This document shows, in pieces, positions 23,833-33,300 of a DNA stretch of 37,659 nucleotides. Below the pieces are notes generated by a model. It saw nothing but the letters and a program-made list of their open reading frames with translations, did no database searches and was not told the origin of the DNA. Position 1 is the first letter of the stretch. Each line of letters opens with the position of its first letter. The translations under genes and the position numbers were made by a program. This stretch comes from Sulfurovum sp. (lineage in GTDB: Bacteria; Campylobacterota; Campylobacteria; Campylobacterales; Sulfurovaceae). Location: positions 1 through 37,659 of the forward strand of contig JAUUDF010000027.1 in assembly GCA_030826885.1 (NCBI GenBank), written 5' to 3'.

Positions 23833-24300
23833 TTATCTTCTTAACGTTGCAATCAGACGCTTGGTATTGCTAAGGAGCGATAAGGCATCCTCAACGGTTT
23901 TGACTGCAATATCGGAAGCGAGAAGTGTCTGTGTGCAGCACCCCTCATCGCCGATGACGGCAATGCCGATGGCAGCGGCTTTGAGCATAAGGGTATCGTT
24001 GTTTCCGTTTCCAATGGCGACACACTTTTCTTTACCCAGAGCCTCTATGAAGTCGGCTTTCTCCTGCGTATGGTCACTGCTTGAGATGACTTTGATCTTA
24101 ACGTTGTAGTCCTCAAGCTCTTTTTGTACACTGCCGAAGGTGTCGGCAGTGATGACATGGATGGTGAAGTGTTGTTGTAGTGCTTGAAAGAGCGTTTTGA
24201 CGCCGGGAAGGACTTTGCCGTCTTTTGCGATGGTACCGTTATAGTCACAGACAATGTCGCTAAGTGCATAGGTGTCCAAATTGGGTATGGATATGGTCAT
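23833..24300 (-). CDS. HAD-superfamily phosphatase, soluble P-type ATPase-like
   Basis: The 155-residue product is a minimal HAD fold with no cap: motif I D19-Y-N-G-T23 ([15 protein letters not shown]), motif II ITADT, and motif [23 protein letters not shown]. The DYNGT form, with Asn in place of the second Asp, resembles the small proteins that look like the phosphorylation domain of P-type ATPases (COG4087 type). Phosphatase activity is probable; the substrate is unknown. It is divergent from selD and separated from it by one promoter region. Confidence 0.85.
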
Positions 24301-24318
24301 ATTTTACTCCAATAGGGG

Positions 24319-24324
24319 TATAAT
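24319..24324 (+). promoter_or_regulatory. selD: promoter of selD
   Basis: AATAGGGGTATAATCTTGC has a perfect TATAAT preceded by GGGG, giving a leader of about 25 nt with AAAAGGA before the ATG. Confidence 0.55.
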
Positions 24325-24355
24325 CTTGCATAGTATAACCAAAAGGATGTTAACC

Positions 24356-25387
24356 ATGGAAACCGTAAAACTGACAGAGTACAGCCACGGAGCGGGATGC
24401 GGCTGTAAAATTTCACCGATGCTGCTTGAGGAGATACTCGATACAACACGTGAAAACATTGTTTATCCGGAGCTTTTGGTGGGAAACGCCAACAAGGATG
24501 ATGCCGCTGCATATGATTTGGGAAATGGTACATCCGTGCTTTCTACGACAGATTTCTTTATGCCGATCGTAGATGATCCGTTCACGTTTGGCAAGATTGC
24601 CGCGACCAATGCGCTCAGTGACATCTATGCCATGGGCGGCAAGCCTTTGATGGCCATTTCTATTTTCGGCTGGCCGATCGACAAACTCTCCGCCGAAGTG
24701 GGACGCGCGGTCATCGACGGTGGGCGTGCCGTATGCGAGGAGGCGGGTATTCCCCTTGCCGGCGGTCACTCCATCGACTCTCCGGAGCCTATTTTCGGGC
24801 TGGCAGCAACGGGACTGGTGGAGAATGCCAACCTGATGACCAATGACGGCGCTAAAGAAGGGTGTCTGCTCTTTTTGACCAAACCGCTTGGAATCGGTAT
24901 TTTGACAACGGCACAAAAGCAGAAGAAGATCGCGCCGGGTGAGATCGATCCGGCAATTGAAGCCATGACGACACTGAACAAAGCGGGTGAAACATTTGCC
25001 GCACTCGACGGGGTGGTTGCCATGACCGACGTGACCGGGTTTGGTCTGTTGGGACACCTCAAAGAGCTCTGTGAGAGCAGTAACATCGGTGCGACAGTCT
25101 GGTTTGACAAAGTGCCGCTGCTGCCCAATGTCGAGAAGTATCGCCAGATGGGGTGTATCCCCGGCGGTGCAAAGAAAAACTTTGCCAGCTACGGAGAGAG
25201 CATCAGTGAAATGACGCAGCAGCAGCGCGAGATACTCTGCGATGCACAGACATCCGGCGGACTGCTTGTGGTAGTGACCAAAGAGGGAGTCGATGCCTTC
25301 CTTGATGCCGCTGCACAACAAGGACTCTCACTCGATCCGATCGGTGAGACCCATGCACAGGGCGAGAAGCTCATTGAGGTAGCGTAG
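24356..25387 (+). CDS. selD: selenophosphate synthase SelD
   Basis: SelD makes selenophosphate from selenide and ATP, the selenium donor for 2-selenouridine in tRNA and for selenocysteine. The 343-residue protein has the N-terminal glycine-rich active-site loop [12 protein letters not shown] with Cys15 and Lys18, matching C17 and K20 of the E. coli enzyme, so the catalytic residue is Cys, not selenocysteine. Further motifs are [37 protein letters not shown] and [14 protein letters not shown] 24356 is preferred over upstream in-frame codons because of AAAAGGA at the right distance. The stop overlaps the GTG of mnmH, so the pair is a dedicated selenium unit. No selA or selB lies in the window. 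Confidence 0.97.
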
Positions 25388-26493
25388 TGCCGACACTGCC
25401 GCTGACAGACGACTTTAAGCAGATCGTGCTGAACAATACGCCTCTTATTGATGTGCGCGCACCCGTAGAGTTTGCCAGGGGAGCATTCCCCCATGCGGTG
25501 AATCTGCCATTGATGGAAGATGAAGAGCGCCAGCTGGTAGGCATTTGCTACAAGGAAAAAGGCAATGCCGAAGCGGTCAAACTGGGACATCGGCTCGTCA
25601 GCGGCAAGATTAGACAGGCGCGCATCGAGGCGTGGCGGCAGTTCATGCATGCCCACCCCGATGCAATGCTCTACTGTTTCAGAGGCGGACAGCGTTCACA
25701 GATCGCCCAGGAGTGGATTGCCCAGAGCGGAGAGGTTATTACCCGGATCAAAGGCGGTTACAAGGCGTTTCGGAACTACCTGATGGCAGAGACTGAAGCG
25801 TCCGTAAGCCGTTTTGAACCGATCATCCTCGGCGGCAGAACAGGATCCGGCAAGACGCTGCTGATCGAAACACTGAAGGGGGCGGTCGATCTGGAAGGGC
25901 TGGCGAACCATCGAGGCTCTTCCTTTGGACGCCATACCACTCCTCAGCCGACACAGATCGCCTTTGAGGATGCATTGGCGTATGACCTCATACAGAAACT
26001 CGAAGCGGGACACAGAAAACTTGTGTTCGAGGATGAAGGACGCAATATCGGGCGGCTTTACCTGCCTCAGACATTTAGCGACCATCTCGCAGCCGGAGCG
26101 CTTGTCATTCTGGAGACACCGATGTCTGAGCGTGTGGAGATCACCTTCGATGAATATGTACGCGAGGAGCAGCATGCGTTTGAAACAGATTTTGGCAAAG
26201 AGATTGGGATGCAAAAATGGCGTGAGGCGATACTCAATGCCATGAGCCGCATACAGAAACGTCTGGGCGGGCTGCGCTACAAAACACTTGTCGATATGTT
26301 TGAAAGTGCCTACAGAGAGCAGGAACGTTCAGGTTCGCTTGAAGCACATAAAGGATGGGTGGAGTATCTGCTTGGTGAGTATTACGATCCGATGTATGAT
26401 TACCAGATAGCCAAACGAGAGGAGCTGATTGTTTTTAGAGGCGATCGTGCTGAAGTAGAATCGTTTCTTGCTGATCGTATGACCCAAATCTGA
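25387..26493 (+). CDS. mnmH: tRNA 2-selenouridine synthase MnmH (SelU)
   Basis: MnmH replaces sulfur by selenium in mnm5s2U34 of tRNA, via a geranylated intermediate, using selenophosphate from SelD. The 368-residue protein has an N-terminal rhodanese domain with the catalytic Cys97 in YCFRGGQRS (the same number as in E. coli), and a P-loop domain with Walker A GGRTGSGKT (about residues 149-157). Other motifs are HRGSSFGRHTTPQPTQ and FEDEGRNIGRLYLP. The start is GTG 25387, sharing a base with the selD stop. The selD-mnmH pairing strongly supports both calls. Confidence 0.96.
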   Translation: MPTLPLTDDFKQIVLNNTPLIDVRAPVEFARGAFPHAVNLPLMEDEERQLVGICYKEKGNAEAVKLGHRLVSGKIRQARIEAWRQFMHAHPDAMLYCFRGGQRSQIAQEWIAQSGEVITRIKGGYKAFRNYLMAETEASVSRFEPIILGGRTGSGKTLLIETLKGAVDLEGLANHRGSSFGRHTTPQPTQIAFEDALAYDLIQKLEAGHRKLVFEDEGRNIGRLYLPQTFSDHLAAGALVILETPMSERVEITFDEYVREEQHAFETDFGKEIGMQKWREAILNAMSRIQKRLGGLRYKTLVDMFESAYREQERSGSLEAHKGWVEYLLGEYYDPMYDYQIAKREELIVFRGDRAEVESFLADRMTQI

Positions 26494-27109: not shown

Positions 27110-28045
27110 ATGGGAAAACACCCGGTTTGGTTCTGGTCGTTTACGGCAGCGTTCATAGCAGCGGTGGTTCTGGTGCTGGAGGTGCCGTATCTGCATGACA
27201 GCGCAGCTGTATGGGCACAGCGTGCATATGTCTATTTAAAGGTCAACGCCGCTGCCATTTTTGCCGCTTTTTTCCTTGTTAAAGGCAAGTTCGTCCTCAA
27301 GCTCTTTTTACAAAAGATACTTTTCATCTCTGCGACCGGTCTTGGAAAGCGCTATCTTGTTGAACGGGTCTTTGCCTACCATTTCAAAAAACATTTTCTC
27401 GACCACATTAAAGGCGACCTTGTCAAACTCGCTGCCTATATCAAAAAGAACTTCATGCGTTTCCCCCTGACAAAAAAGATCGTTGCGGGGTTTGTGTTTT
27501 TGGGCTCACTGGGGTATGTAGGCAAGTTCATGGGATGGATGCTTGCGGTGAAGGTCTTTGTGGCGAAAATATGGAGCATCCTGCTGGCGGTGGTACTCAA
27601 AACAGGCAGTGCAGTGGTTTACTTTTTCACCGACTATATCTGGGGAAGCTGGCTGGCACCGATTGTTGAGGTGGTCATTTTCTCCTGGCTGCTGGAACTT
27701 CTGGAGAAAATCCCTTTTCTTACCTCTACCATACGGCGCCTCTACCGTGCTTCATTGGCACTGATACGGTGGATGGAAACGCACATAGGAAGTCTGCTGC
27801 ACTATCCCATAAGACGTCTGCTGCGATGGCTGCTTAAACAGGTACGCGGCATGATCTATGCATTTATAGACTATAAACGGGTATCGGCGTGGCATCAGCT
27901 GCAGGAGCTTCGTGTATATGAGCCGAGTATCAGAGAGAGACTGGTTCAAAAACGCAAGCAATACAGGGCAAAGCGTACAAAGGTACGCCTTTCACGGTTT
28001 GCAAAGCGAAGAGTAAAGCAAAAAGAGAAGAAACTGGATCAGTAG
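27110..28045 (+). CDS. membrane protein of unknown function, very basic tail
   Basis: The 311-residue product has hydrophobic stretches near residues 7-25, 45-62, 123-140, 143-171 and 180-198, rich in Trp and Phe. A C-terminal region with about 30 Arg/Lys in the last 75 residues may bind nucleic acid or lipid head groups. The ATG at 27110 is chosen because it follows the previous stop by two bases; the same frame is open further up, inside the neighbour. Family unknown. The last 7 bases overlap the convergent smpB gene. Confidence 0.7.
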   Translation: MGKHPVWFWSFTAAFIAAVVLVLEVPYLHDSAAVWAQRAYVYLKVNAAAIFAAFFLVKGKFVLKLFLQKILFISATGLGKRYLVERVFAYHFKKHFLDHIKGDLVKLAAYIKKNFMRFPLTKKIVAGFVFLGSLGYVGKFMGWMLAVKVFVAKIWSILLAVVLKTGSAVVYFFTDYIWGSWLAPIVEVVIFSWLLELLEKIPFLTSTIRRLYRASLALIRWMETHIGSLLHYPIRRLLRWLLKQVRGMIYAFIDYKRVSAWHQLQELRVYEPSIRERLVQKRKQYRAKRTKVRLSRFAKRRVKQKEKKLDQ

Positions 28046-28500
28046 GAGCGGTTTTTCATGGCTGTTTTGGCTTCTCTGTCAAGTGTTTTGGCTTTGAGAT
28101 CCGCGCGTTTGTCGTACAGTTTTTTACCTTTGGCAATGGCGATACTGACCTTGGCGATGTTGCGTTCGTTGAAGTAGATCATCAGGGGAACAATGGTCAG
28201 TCCGTCTTTATGGACTTTGTTGTGGAGTTTGAGCAGCTCTTTTTTGTGCAGCAGCAGTTTGCGCGGGGTACGGCTGTCTCTGGCAAAGTGGCGGTTGGTG
28301 GTCTCCAGTTCGGCAATATGGGCATTCATAAGGTAGAGTTCACCCTTGATGAAACGGCAGAAGGCATCGTTGAGGTTGGCACGTTTGGCACGCAGTGCCT
28401 TTACCTCGCTTCCCTGCAGTACAATGCCCGCCTCAAACTTTTCGAGTATCTCATAATCGTGTCTGGCTTTTTTGTTCTGTGCGATGATGTTAATGCCCAC
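28039..28500 (-). CDS. smpB: SsrA-binding protein SmpB
   Basis: SmpB binds tmRNA and brings it to stalled ribosomes for trans-translation. The 153-residue protein has the barrel motifs ARHDYEILEKFEAGIVLQGSEVKALRAKRANL and LYLMNAHI, and the KKLYDKRADLKAKTLDREAKTAM C-terminal tail that forms a helix in the mRNA path. The start is GTG at 28500, preceded by AAGGGG on the minus strand. tmRNA itself is not in the window. In relatives smpB sits next to ispE; here about 4.8 kb of other genes separate them. Confidence 0.97.
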   Translation of the reverse strand: MGINIIAQNKKARHDYEILEKFEAGIVLQGSEVKALRAKRANLNDAFCRFIKGELYLMNAHIAELETTNRHFARDSRTPRKLLLHKKELLKLHNKVHKDGLTIVPLMIYFNERNIAKVSIAIAKGKKLYDKRADLKAKTLDREAKTAMKNRSY

Positions 28501-28661: not shown

Positions 28662-29885
28662 ATGCAAAAATGGATACTGATAAGTTTTATCTGTGTGGTG
28701 ACGATAACGATGGCTGCACCGTTGGGAAAAAAGTAGGAGTCGAACAAAAACTGTGAAGCGTGTCATCAGGATATTTCCAAGACATGAGAAACCTCCCGTC
28801 ATGCACATTCACATTTCAGTAAAAATGATCTTTTCAGAAAATCACTCGAGCTTATGGTGCGAAAACATCCGACGATGATACTCGATGAGGTCAAGATAAA
28901 GTGTGCACAGTGCCACAATCCGCGACTGCTGAAGCAGAAAGTCAGTAATGAAGAGAAGGTAGGACTTTTGCTCGGAGACAGTAGTACAAAAAAAACTTTC
29001 CATTCGATGCTGGAGAATGTCACGATGAAAAACGGGATCAACTGTATGGTTTGTCACAATATTGATGAAATTCATTTGGACAAAGCAAAAGGATCCGGTG
29101 GCATGAAGAGTGTGAAGTTCGGCCCTCAGGGAACCATGTTCGGCCCTCAGGGAACCATGTTCGGCCCGTTCGCAGATGCGGTATCGCCTTACCACAAGAC
29201 GGAGCAGCGCAGCCATTTTGTAGGAGATACGCCTACACTCTGTTTTGTCTGCCACTACAGTCAGAAAAATGACCATGGGTTGGAAGTCTATGCCACAGGT
29301 AAAGAATATGACAAGTTTAAGGTAGAAGAGGAAGGGTGTAAAAACTGCCACATGAGCGAACGCTTTAAAGGGGTTGCATCCAACTATGCACCGGCGGGAG
29401 GGGACCCCAAAGAGCGAATGGTCAGAAAGCACCGCTTTGCCAGTGTGGACAACAGCAATATACTCAATGATTATGTCGATGTCAAAGGCAGGAGTCAGGG
29501 GGACAAGTTTGTTCTGACAGTGACCAATCATGCGCCGCACAAAATATCAACGGGATATGGGCTCAGAGAGATTATTCTCAAGGTGACATTCCTTGACAAA
29601 AACGACAAGGAATTGGCACGAAAACGGTACGTACTCGGCAAAAAGTGGACAGATGAAGAGGGAAAACCGACCATACCGCACTTGGCGAAAAAACTTGTTA
29701 AAGATACATCGATGGCGGGCAAAAGTACCAATGCCTACAAGTTCCCTATTCCGCAAGGAGCGGTCTATGCGACTTACAGTTTTTCCTACCGCCTTGTCTC
29801 CGAAGGGCTTGCCAAAGAGATGGGTATTACCGATCCGTTCTTTTTGCGGGAGTATACTTTCTCCGAGATGCGGGTACATCTGTAA
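28662..29885 (+). pseudogene. pentaheme c-type cytochrome with two in-frame stops
   Basis: One reading frame from ATG 28662 (ribosome binding site AAAGGAG) to TAA 29885 would encode 407 residues: a signal peptide (about residues 1-19), five CXXCH haem sites starting at residues 31, 81, 128, 194 and 226, and a beta-rich C-terminal domain of about 160 residues. It is broken by TAG at codon 25 (28734-28736) and TGA at codon 42 (28785-28787), on either side of the first haem site CEACH. The context suggests Gln or Tyr and Trp were lost. The remaining 365 codons are open. Restarting at internal ATG 28854 would lose the signal peptide and first haem site and has no ribosome binding site, so export and haem attachment would fail. 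It is either a recent pseudogene, a sequencing error, or a case of readthrough. The electron-transfer partner is unknown. Confidence 0.8.
29118..29167 (+). repeat. 21-bp tandem duplication inside the cytochrome gene
   Basis: TTCGGCCCTCAGGGAACCATG occurs twice in a row (29118-29138 and 29139-29159), followed by a third partial copy TTCGGCCC. It duplicates the heptapeptide FGPQGTM in frame. The exact identity of the copies points to a recent event. Confidence 0.9.
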
Positions 29886-29949: not shown

Positions 29950-30618
29950 ATGCAAGAGTCGGTCACTTCTCCCCTTGGCATCTTTGAACCTGTTGTACAA
30001 ACAGCGATCAGCCGCTATACAAAGCGGCTTTTTTTCAAAAAGGGTGAAACCCTTTTCAGTGGTGATGAGCTGCTGTACTACTTCTATATTGTCGTTAGCG
30101 GCAAGGTCAAGAGCTACCAGCTCAACCTCGACAACGGCAAGGAGCAGACAATCTTCATCTTTAGAGAAGGCGATATGTTCGATACGATCGTACTGCTTGA
30201 CGGAGAGCCGCATGATGTGATGTATGAAGCGCTTGAAGACTCCGAACTGCTGCAGCTTCCCATTGCAGAAGTGAGGGAGCTGCTGCGTACCAATGAAGCG
30301 TTTAACAGGATGTTTTTTCCTTACCTTGCCAAGCAGATGCGGCACATGGAGGAGCTGGCGACGGATCTTTCACTCTATTCTACCTCCGAGCGGCTCATCA
30401 AACTGCTGCTGCAAAACCTCGACCCCAACAACAGGCTCAAGTATAAACTTATTCAGGGGCTTTCGAATACCGAAATCGCCAAACTCATCGGTACGGTACG
30501 CCATGTGGTCGAACGCCACCTCAAAGCACTCAAGTCTGACGGTACCATCGCGACCAAAAACAAAGACGTGCAGATTCTCGATGCCAACAAACTGCTTGAG
30601 AAGATCAACCTTTTCTAA
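29950..30618 (+). CDS. Crp/Fnr-family transcription regulator
   Basis: The 222-residue protein has an N-terminal cyclic-nucleotide-binding-type barrel (about residues 25-115, with FFKKGETLFSGDE and VVSGKVKSYQLNLDNGKEQTIFIFREGDMF), a long dimer helix, and a C-terminal winged helix with LSNTEIAKLIGTVRHVVERHLKALKSDG (171-198). The recognition helix carries R184, H185, E188 and R189, which differs from CRP (R, E, G, R) and FNR (V, E, S, R). It has no cysteine, so an FNR-type iron-sulfur sensor is excluded. The signal is unknown; haem, NO or a nucleotide remain possible. It lies between the broken cytochrome gene and yfdX. Two matching palindromes downstream are its probable targets. Confidence 0.92.
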   Translation: MQESVTSPLGIFEPVVQTAISRYTKRLFFKKGETLFSGDELLYYFYIVVSGKVKSYQLNLDNGKEQTIFIFREGDMFDTIVLLDGEPHDVMYEALEDSELLQLPIAEVRELLRTNEAFNRMFFPYLAKQMRHMEELATDLSLYSTSERLIKLLLQNLDPNNRLKYKLIQGLSNTEIAKLIGTVRHVVERHLKALKSDGTIATKNKDVQILDANKLLEKINLF

Positions 30619-30631
30619 CTTCTTTTTGCAA

Positions 30632-30651
30632 AATGCAACTTCAGTTGCATT
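30632..30651 (+). promoter_or_regulatory. palindromic operator upstream of yfdX
   Basis: AATGCAAC and GTTGCATT are perfect 8-bp inverted halves around TTCA. The centre lies 30.5 bp before the first base of TATAAT, about -42 from the expected start of transcription. This is the class II activator position of Crp/Fnr proteins, and a Crp/Fnr gene ends 13 bp upstream. The AAC-N4-GTT core also resembles the NssR site of C. jejuni as I recall it. No T run follows, so it is not a normal terminator. Confidence 0.7.
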
Positions 30652-30671
30652 GCGTGTTTGACTCTCCCCCC

Positions 30672-30677
30672 TATAAT
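30672..30677 (+). promoter_or_regulatory. -10 of yfdX
   Basis: TATAAT in the context CCCCCCTATAATTTTTTC. There is no -35 hexamer, consistent with a need for an activator bound at the upstream palindrome. The leader is about 50 nt and ends in AAGGAGTCAACC before the ATG. Confidence 0.65.
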
Positions 30678-30734
30678 TTTTTCAGATTTAGCCTGTATGA
30701 CTAAACACTAAAACCATGACATAAGGAGTCAACC

Positions 30735-31622
30735 ATGAAAAAACTACTCTTATCGGCCATTGCAGCATCTCTGCTGCTCTCTACAGGTTCTGTTGCCAAA
30801 GAGCAGGCAGCCAAGAACGCGACTGTCGGCGAGGTGAACAAGATTGCCATTGCCAATGCCAAAGAAGATGCGCGAGACCATCAGGCAAAACTGGTCAAAG
30901 AAGCGATTGAATCATTGAAGTATGCACAGGATGCGGTGATTGCACTGGAGCATAAAGAGAACAAAAGAGCGACCGATTCGCTTGAGAAGGCGTTGGGTAA
31001 ACTCGAAGTGATACTTGCGGCAAAAAATGCGCCAAAATTGCTTCCGATAGACAACATCATTCGTGTACAGGAGTTTGTCGGTACAGCAGATGATGTCGAC
31101 AAGGCAGTCAAAACAGTCAAAGAGCTTTTGGATGACGGTAAAGTACAGGAGGCAAGAGCGCTGATGATACCGCTTGTAAGTGAAATTGACATGACTGTAG
31201 TCAATCTGCCTCTTGCATCTTACCCCGATGCCCTGAAACTGGCTGCGAAATACATTCATGACGGACAGCCTGACAAGGCAAAAGAGGTGCTTTACATCGC
31301 CCTGAGTACCTTTACACAGGTAACCCATATTGTACCGATTCCGCTGCTTGAGAGTACCGATCTGATTGCGGCGGCACAGCGTGTTGCCAAAGAGAATAAA
31401 GAGCAGGCACTCAAGTATCTCGATGCTGCTTCCGACGCGCTTGACGTTGCGGAGAAACTTGGGTATGTAAGTGAAAGTGCAACAACCTACAAGGTGCTGC
31501 ATGACCAGATCAAAGCGGTGAAAAAAGAGATCAAAGGCAAGAACAAGGCTGAAAAACTCTTTGAAGAGCTGGCAGCAAAACTCAAAGAGTTCAAGTCTAA
31601 GATAGTTTCCGAGAAAAAATAG
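30735..31622 (+). CDS. YfdX-family periplasmic stress protein
   Basis: The 295-residue product has a clear signal peptide (MKKLLLSAIAASLLLSTGSVA, cleavage after residue 21). The mature part is almost wholly helical and shows the YfdX family pattern: AQDAVIALEHKENKRATDSLEKALGKLEVIL, then VKTVKELLDDGKVQEARALMIPLVSEIDMTVVNLPLASYPDALK, and DGQPDKAKEVLYIALSTF. YfdX proteins are acid- or stress-linked in enterobacteria (regulated by EvgA in E. coli) and occur in heat-resistance loci, but their molecular function is not settled; a periplasmic chaperone-like role is proposed. A palindrome and a TATAAT precede it. The next gene, also behind such a palindrome, is an Hsp20. Confidence 0.88.
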   Translation: MKKLLLSAIAASLLLSTGSVAKEQAAKNATVGEVNKIAIANAKEDARDHQAKLVKEAIESLKYAQDAVIALEHKENKRATDSLEKALGKLEVILAAKNAPKLLPIDNIIRVQEFVGTADDVDKAVKTVKELLDDGKVQEARALMIPLVSEIDMTVVNLPLASYPDALKLAAKYIHDGQPDKAKEVLYIALSTFTQVTHIVPIPLLESTDLIAAAQRVAKENKEQALKYLDAASDALDVAEKLGYVSESATTYKVLHDQIKAVKKEIKGKNKAEKLFEELAAKLKEFKSKIVSEKK

Positions 31623-31626
31623 TGCA

Positions 31627-31646
31627 GATGCTACTTAGGTAGCATC
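31627..31646 (+). promoter_or_regulatory. palindromic operator upstream of hsp20
   Basis: GATGCTAC and GTAGCATC are perfect 8-bp inverted halves around TTAG. The right half ends exactly 20 bp before TATAAT, the same distance as at the yfdX operator, and the shared consensus is ATGCwAC-TTnn-GTwGCAT. A GACTyTC stretch is also conserved at the same place in both spacers. It begins 4 bp after the yfdX stop. Confidence 0.7.
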
Positions 31647-31666
31647 GCTGTAGCGACTTTCTTGTT

Positions 31667-31672
31667 TATAAT
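31667..31672 (+). promoter_or_regulatory. -10 of the first hsp20 gene
   Basis: TATAAT in CTTGTTTATAATAAAAC, without a -35. The leader ends in AAAGGAGTCAATC before the ATG, nearly identical to the yfdX ribosome binding region (AAGGAGTCAACC), which suggests the two control regions share an origin. Confidence 0.65.
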
Positions 31673-31713
31673 AAAACAAAAAAGAGGATGGAAACATCCA
31701 AAAGGAGTCAATC

Positions 31714-32151
31714 ATGTTAGTGACACGATATAACCCATACAATGAAGTCAGAAGAGGTTTTGAACTGCTGAACAGTATGATGCAAAATCTCGATGCCACC
31801 GCAGAAGAGGGTGCCATCGCCTCTTTTGTGCCAAAGGTCAATACCCGTGAAGGCGATGATGCCTATTATGTCGAGATAGACCTGCCCGGTATCAAGAAAG
31901 AGGACATTGAGATTACAACGGAAGACAATGTTCTGACAATCTCGGGTGAGCGTAAAATGAAAGATGAGGTCAAGGAGAACGACTACTACAAAATCGAAAG
32001 TGCCTACGGCAAGTTTTCAAGAAGCTTTACACTGCCCGAGAAGGTGGATGTAGAGAAGATTGAGGCCGAAAGCAAGGACGGTGTACTTGAAGTGGTCATT
32101 CCCAAACTCAAAGAAGAAGAGAAAAAGCCTAAAAAGATTGAAATAAAATAA
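31714..32151 (+). CDS. small heat-shock protein, Hsp20 family (first copy)
   Basis: Hsp20 proteins are ATP-independent holdases that form large oligomers in the cytoplasm. The 145-residue product has a short N-terminal arm, an alpha-crystallin domain (about residues 38-130) with YYVEIDLPGIKKEDIEI, NVLTISGERK, GKFSRSFTLPEKVD and SKDGVLEVVIPKL, and a C-terminal I-x-I anchor (IEIK) at the very end. Its control region copies that of yfdX. It shares only part of its sequence with the second copy, so the pair is an old duplication, not a fresh one. Confidence 0.96.
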   Translation: MLVTRYNPYNEVRRGFELLNSMMQNLDATAEEGAIASFVPKVNTREGDDAYYVEIDLPGIKKEDIEITTEDNVLTISGERKMKDEVKENDYYKIESAYGKFSRSFTLPEKVDVEKIEAESKDGVLEVVIPKLKEEEKKPKKIEIK

Positions 32152-32152
32152 A

Positions 32153-32183
32153 ATGAGAGGGCACAGGGGCTTTCCTCCCTCAT
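32153..32183 (+). repeat. stem-loop between the two hsp20 genes
   Basis: ATGAG-AGG (32153-32160) pairs with CCT (32174-32176) and CTCAT (32179-32183) with a CC bulge. No T run follows. It may tune the level of the second gene relative to the first by partial termination or mRNA processing. Confidence 0.35.
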
Positions 32184-32217
32184 TGATACGAATTCACATC
32201 ACAACAGGAGGTGCAGC

Positions 32218-32643
32218 ATGGATGTTGTAAAAACAGCAAAAGAGGTTGCAAATACAGTAGAGGAAAAAGTCGAAAAAGGCGTTGAGGTTGCAAAAGAGAC
32301 CTTTGCCAATGTAGCGAGCCATCTTCCCTTTGCAAACCTTGCCAGAAAAGGAAGTGATGCATTCAGCATCGAGGTTGATCTTCCCGGAGTGAAAAAGGAA
32401 GATATTGAACTTCAGGTAGAGGACAACATTCTAACCGTCAAAGCGGTAAGAAAGATGAAAAACGAGGTCAAAAAAGAAGATTACTATCTGTGCGAAAGCA
32501 ACTTCGGACTGATCTCAAGAAGTTTTGTCCTGCCTGAAGGGATAGACAAAGAGAAGATCAATGCCACCTATGAGGACGGCAGACTCTACATTACCCTTGA
32601 GAAGGAAGAATCACGCAAAGCCAAAAGCATTGCGGTAAAATAA
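32218..32643 (+). CDS. small heat-shock protein, Hsp20 family (second copy)
   Basis: The 141-residue product has an alpha-crystallin domain from about residue 45 (FSIEVDLPGVKKEDIEL, NILTVKAVRKMK, LISRSFVLPEGID, EDGRLYITLEKE) and ends in an I-x-V anchor (IAVK). Its N-terminal 40 residues differ from the first copy: an amphipathic, valine- and lysine-rich helix (VVKTAKEVANTVEEKVEKGVE) that could bind membranes or form coils. The ribosome binding site AGGAGGTG is near perfect. No separate promoter is visible, so it is likely co-transcribed with the first copy. Different arms suggest different clients or mixed oligomers. Confidence 0.95.
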   Translation: MDVVKTAKEVANTVEEKVEKGVEVAKETFANVASHLPFANLARKGSDAFSIEVDLPGVKKEDIELQVEDNILTVKAVRKMKNEVKKEDYYLCESNFGLISRSFVLPEGIDKEKINATYEDGRLYITLEKEESRKAKSIAVK

Positions 32644-32653
32644 GACTTCAGAG

Positions 32654-32674
32654 GATGCGGTTCATCCGCATCTT
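32654..32674 (+). terminator. stem-loop after the second hsp20 gene
   Basis: GATGCGG (32654-32660) and CCGCATC (32666-32672) form a perfect 7-bp stem with the loop TTCAT, 10 nt after the stop. The T tail is short, so efficiency is uncertain. The loop length of 5 and the lack of a TATAAT at the right distance separate it from the two operators. A single half-site ATGCTAC occurs at 32683-32689, before the next gene. Confidence 0.5.
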
Positions 32675-32718
32675 ACCACGTCTATGCTACGATATGGAAA
32701 ATCTTCACTGGATACTGC

Positions 32719-33300
32719 ATGAATAAAATCATTCAAAGCAACTTTATTATGATGCTGCTTGGTATTACACTTTTTGTAGGAGGCTATTTCTTTTTACGAC
32801 TGGCCTATCATATGTCTGACAAAATGCCTTTTACGCAGGAGATCATCCTGGTGATTCTGGGTACACTCGCGACCATACTCATTACGGCGATGCTGTTGAA
32901 CAAACAGACCTCAGTCGAGCTTGAAAAAGAGCAGAGTATCAAATTTATTGAACTGAAAATGGAAGAGTACCGTGAACTTATCGATCGCATAGAATCGATC
33001 GTGATCCATCGGGAGATCAGTGAAAAAGAGTTGACACAGCTGCAGTTTCACAGCCATAAACTTGCCATTGTCGCCTCTCCCTCCGTGCTCAAGGAGTATC
33101 AGCATTTTTTACAGATTTTCCATCAATGCATCGGAAACGATAAACATGTCAGTGCTACCGACGAGGATTTGCTATCGGAAGCATTGGCACGCCTTACCGT
33201 ACATATTCGTAAAGATCTCATCGGCGAGCTGGATGAACAGAGTACCGTCAGTGCCGCGCAGATTCGAAAACAGATTATGGCGAATGCAGCGGAGCTTTAG
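32719..33300 (+). CDS. small membrane protein with coiled coil, unknown
   Basis: The 193-residue product has two membrane helices (about residues 9-29 and 41-61), then a charged helical region likely to form a coiled coil (66-105), and a mostly helical soluble end. I recognise no family. The ribosome binding site is poor. It follows the hsp20 pair, so it may take part in the same response, but there is no direct evidence. Its stop codon overlaps the convergent end of ispE by four bases. Confidence 0.65.
   Translation: MNKIIQSNFIMMLLGITLFVGGYFFLRLAYHMSDKMPFTQEIILVILGTLATILITAMLLNKQTSVELEKEQSIKFIELKMEEYRELIDRIESIVIHREISEKELTQLQFHSHKLAIVASPSVLKEYQHFLQIFHQCIGNDKHVSATDEDLLSEALARLTVHIRKDLIGELDEQSTVSAAQIRKQIMANAAEL

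Follow-up and report, generated by a model that had tools for sequence, protein, structure and literature searches.

Does the interrupted reading frame at positions 28662-29885 of this Sulfurovum sp. contig still yield a haem-loaded cytochrome through some special decoding of its two in-frame stop codons, or is it what is left of a gene that has recently been lost? The window, by which we mean the whole stretch of 37,659 nucleotides that was analysed, lies on contig 37 of a metagenome-assembled genome (MAG) of 57 contigs and 1.65 Mb that is 89% complete. As the earlier note had described, the frame is open except for a TAG at codon 25 and a TGA at codon 42; an AAAGGAG ribosome-binding site immediately 5' of the ATG and a signal peptide precede the stops, and four CXXCH haem sites together with a long C-terminal part follow the codon-42 TGA. 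The features concerned are the following:

28662..29885, + strand: very probable pseudogene of a periplasmic pentahaem c-type cytochrome (read-through frame of 407 codons plus the terminal TAA)
28662..28718, + strand: putative signal-peptide coding part, about 19 codons, with its boundary placed from the sequence and the orthologue alignment
28734..28736, + strand: premature TAG, codon 25 (orthologue codons TGG in eight of nine, TAT in one)
28752..28766, + strand: CEACH, the first haem site (codons 31-35), flanked by the two stops
28785..28787, + strand: premature TGA, codon 42 (orthologue codons TGG in nine of nine)
29118..29159, + strand: exact 21-bp tandem duplication, with copies at 29118-29138 and 29139-29159, without counterpart in the orthologues
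28039..28500, - strand: smpB, which constantly adjoins the cytochrome gene in each of the ten carriers
29950..30618, + strand: Crp/Fnr-type regulator, intact downstream neighbour

Translation of 28662-29885 gives MQKWILISFICVVTITMAAPLGKK*ESNKNCEACHQDISKT*ETSRH..., with asterisks for the two stops, and continues up to the terminal TAA. The read-through frame holds five CXXCH sites (CEACH, CAQCH, CMVCH, CFVCH and CKNCH) and a C-terminal beta domain, the features of a pentahaem c-type cytochrome that its intact relatives also possess, and it occurs as a single copy in the 89% complete genome. Because nine orthologues match this frame over its full length, with identities of 54-78%, the frame is judged to be more than a product of chance. 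Taken together, the signal peptide and the haem sites suggest that the ancestral protein likely functioned in periplasmic electron transfer.

We used the orthologue alignment to ask which residues once stood at the two stops. Codon 25 corresponds to Trp in eight of the nine orthologues and to Tyr in the remaining one, whereas codon 42 corresponds to Trp in every one of them. Since relatives carry Trp codons at both positions, each stop is best read as a TGG altered by one G-to-A change, TGG to TAG at codon 25 and TGG to TGA at codon 42. The earlier note had proposed a single transition for each stop, which agrees with this result, as does its TGG at codon 42; its CAG at codon 25 does not, the relatives having TGG there. 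The codon-42 Trp is retained even in the distant relatives of known structure, PDB 5ze8 and 9wt8, where it forms part of a W..S.HA motif after the first haem site.

The same copy carries further lesions. The exact 21-bp duplication, which the earlier note had overlooked and which is absent from all nine orthologues in the alignment, adds seven residues, and the window copy has replaced two residues that never vary among the other nine proteins (P to S in PTGYGLR, R to S in KDTR). Two observations weigh a little against plain decay. With two nonsense and two missense changes falling on sites that do not vary in the other copies, nonsense is slightly in excess (P about 0.1). All three stops known in this gene, the two in the window and one in the related genome G001, sit in its first 10%, a stretch that holds about 13-26% of the nonsense opportunities, so that three of three is mildly unusual for what is a post hoc observation; such early clustering may come from selection that disfavours truncated haem proteins, or from chance.

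How long ago was the gene disabled? Pairwise dN/dS between the window copy and its sister (G092/L033), with which it shares 77% identity over ungapped columns, is about 0.06, at a dS near saturation. In a relative-rate count with L034 as outgroup, 20 changes fell on the window branch and 28 on the sister branch, and other outgroups likewise gave no marked excess of amino-acid change on the window branch. On the rest of the sequence, the duplication and the two invariant-site changes would speak for relaxed constraint, but the overall rate is not accelerated. Since amino-acid change has not accelerated after the split from the sister lineage, the damage appears to be young: as far as these comparisons tell, selection acted on the gene through most of its existence, and its inactivation is recent. 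The recent damage that the earlier note had read from the long open remainder is thereby borne out by the high conservation, the unaccelerated amino-acid change and the additional in-frame duplication, and also by the repeated loss in relatives.

Across the genus, 10 of 78 genomes, the window's own included, carry the gene (E below 1e-50), and the named orthologue copies come from MAGs of Sulfurovum sp. and of one Campylobacterales bacterium. In all of these carriers the cytochrome gene adjoins smpB, which points to a single ancestral chromosomal place from which it would have been inherited vertically. The orthologue in G001 (L038:1492-2691) has an independent in-frame TAG of its own in the signal peptide, at a position occupied by Gln in its relatives L004 and L037, and is otherwise intact over 400 codons. 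In G079 and G084, both close to the window lineage as judged by smpB, the cytochrome gene is missing and smpB adjoins the Crp gene directly. Carriers and non-carriers are scattered over the smpB tree, a tree of one short gene from which the exact number of losses is not countable. Relatives thus appear to have lost the cytochrome by other stops or by deletion, and the lineage is, on this comparison, one that loses the gene repeatedly.

The surroundings of the locus vary as well. Between smpB and ispE, the window contains a block at 29950-33300 made up of the Crp regulator, YfdX, two Hsp20 genes and a gene for a 193-aa protein. At L030 the Crp/YfdX/Hsp20 block is present together with the cytochrome; at L035 and L038 smpB and ispE flank the cytochrome directly. 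Because smpB, cytochrome and ispE are contiguous at these last two loci, the block seems to be an insertion.

Several explanations would leave the gene functional, and these have to be weighed against decay. The plainest is that both stops are sequencing or assembly errors in the MAG consensus. The assembly is indeed fragmented and incomplete (57 contigs, 89% complete), and the persistence of purifying selection until recently also fits an intact gene; but two independent point errors would both have had to strike conserved Trp codons, and this in the very copy in which 21 bp are exactly duplicated and two invariant residues replaced, between adjacent genes that are intact, while a second species (G001) carries an independent stop. 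We therefore regard sequencing error as an unlikely source of both stops, with a small residual chance of being right; most of the doubt left about decay concerns how well reads would support the stops. The stops could instead be decoded as Trp, through a suppressor tRNA, a change in release or a recoding of the whole genome, which would account for their exact placement at conserved Trp positions and for the open remainder of the frame. The genes for RF1 (prfA) and RF2 (prfB), however, are present and intact, the sole tRNA-Trp found has the anticodon CCA, and none of the 30 tRNAs found in the 89% complete genome bears a suppressor anticodon. TAG and TGA, moreover, are everyday terminators in the window (38 ORFs that we selected end in TAA 20 times, TAG 10 times and TGA 8 times), both UAG and UGA would need reassignment, and the TAG of G001 replaces the Gln of its relatives, not a Trp. 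Such recoding is very improbable, as is, to a marginally lesser extent, the related proposal of a conditionally read frame in which both stops, standing at conserved Trp codons, are decoded as Trp by editing or suppression and the N-terminal stop of G001 is a parallel.

A-to-I editing of the mRNA, restoring UAG and UGA to codons read as UGG, would reverse precisely the difference from TGG that is seen at both stops. Editing by bacterial TadA, however, requires UACG, usually as YUACGAA within a hairpin loop (PMC12255301), and the stops stand in the contexts AGUAGGA and AUGAGA, with neither A within UACG, in a region that folds no better than its shuffles (z 0.24); we consider editing even less probable than recoding. 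A structured readthrough element was likewise rejected, given this ordinary fold and the absence of any Rfam match in the window. Least credible of all is a selenocysteine at the codon-42 TGA, on the model of ExtKL (MccSep), a related multihaem cytochrome that is a selenoprotein. In NCBIfam the intact sister is best matched by the ExtKL family, but with just 79 bits against a cut-off of 250, and selD and mnmH sit a few genes upstream; yet the position of codon 42 is Trp in the relatives and in MccSep itself, where selenocysteine is residue 325 (as given by the PDB molecule name, a U325A mutant), beyond the matched haem part. Nor was a selB above cut-off found in the genome (89% complete), the TAG at codon 25 would stay unexplained, and selD is explained by mnmH, that is, by tRNA selenouridine. 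In sum, readthrough, which the earlier note had left as an alternative to recent damage, found no support from release factors, tRNAs, terminators, the editing motif or selB.

With regard to selenium itself, selD and mnmH (tRNA 2-selenouridine synthase) are adjacent at 24272-26493 of the window. From this adjacency and the lack of a selB above cut-off in the genome, it seems that selenium goes into modified tRNA and not into selenoproteins.

What we see at this locus is ordinary gene decay with no hidden code. The lesions, as read in one MAG consensus, the absence of these lesions from relatives and the patchy loss of the gene are all observed, and with great confidence we take the frame to be a recent unitary pseudogene. 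The MAG belongs to Campylobacterota, within or near Sulfurovum, and the periplasmic pentahaem cytochrome once encoded there would have been dispensable. The cytochrome gene would have been inherited vertically at its fixed place beside smpB until two G-to-A changes turned the conserved Trp codons 25 and 42 into TAG and TGA and inactivated it. Initiation at the original start would then yield a 24-residue peptide, barely longer than the signal peptide and with zero haem sites. An internal restart at the ATG at 28854 was considered and rejected; it opens a frame of 343 aa, but the product would have neither the signal peptide nor the first haem site. We infer the order of events as well as their cause, which would be that selection on this accessory electron-transfer protein had relaxed.

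A literature search on Sulfurovum pseudogenes returned nothing relevant. The locus is a clear example of how Campylobacterota near Sulfurovum lose an accessory multihaem cytochrome step by step: at one chromosomal place the gene is intact in some genomes, carries stops in others and is missing from still others. The interrupted frame requires no special decoding. Its main value lies in annotation, in that a functional protein should not be predicted at 28662-29885; it is also a small example of a respiratory component undergoing loss.

Among solved proteins, cytochrome c552 of Thermochromatium tepidum, a pentahaem protein (PDB 5ze8), comes nearest both in sequence (E 1.3e-17) and in predicted fold (E 2.4e-12). 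Since the haem part of the AlphaFold model is of low confidence (mean pLDDT 55), we used only the model's C-terminal domain and the top fold match. The two proteins have in common the W..S.HA motif after the first haem site, five haems and a C-terminal beta domain with a PTG motif; they differ in sequence, with a low identity of 16% in the fold match, and in the stops that break up the window copy. The haem-binding region is also related to that of ExtKL/MccSep of Geobacter (NF040886; PDB 9wt8; E 1.5e-8), which likewise has five haems (PMC5877670), but the intact sister falls under the family cut-off, as given above, and the window cytochrome lacks both selenocysteine and ext neighbours. As a mode of loss, a close parallel is offered by bacterial pseudogenes that arose through independent nonsense mutations in related lineages, for example the arginine decarboxylase gene of Chlamydia trachomatis, for which independent inactivating mutations in separate lineages are reported (PMC2720952). 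Our case differs from it in concerning Campylobacterota and a c-type cytochrome, and in that some relatives lack the gene entirely.
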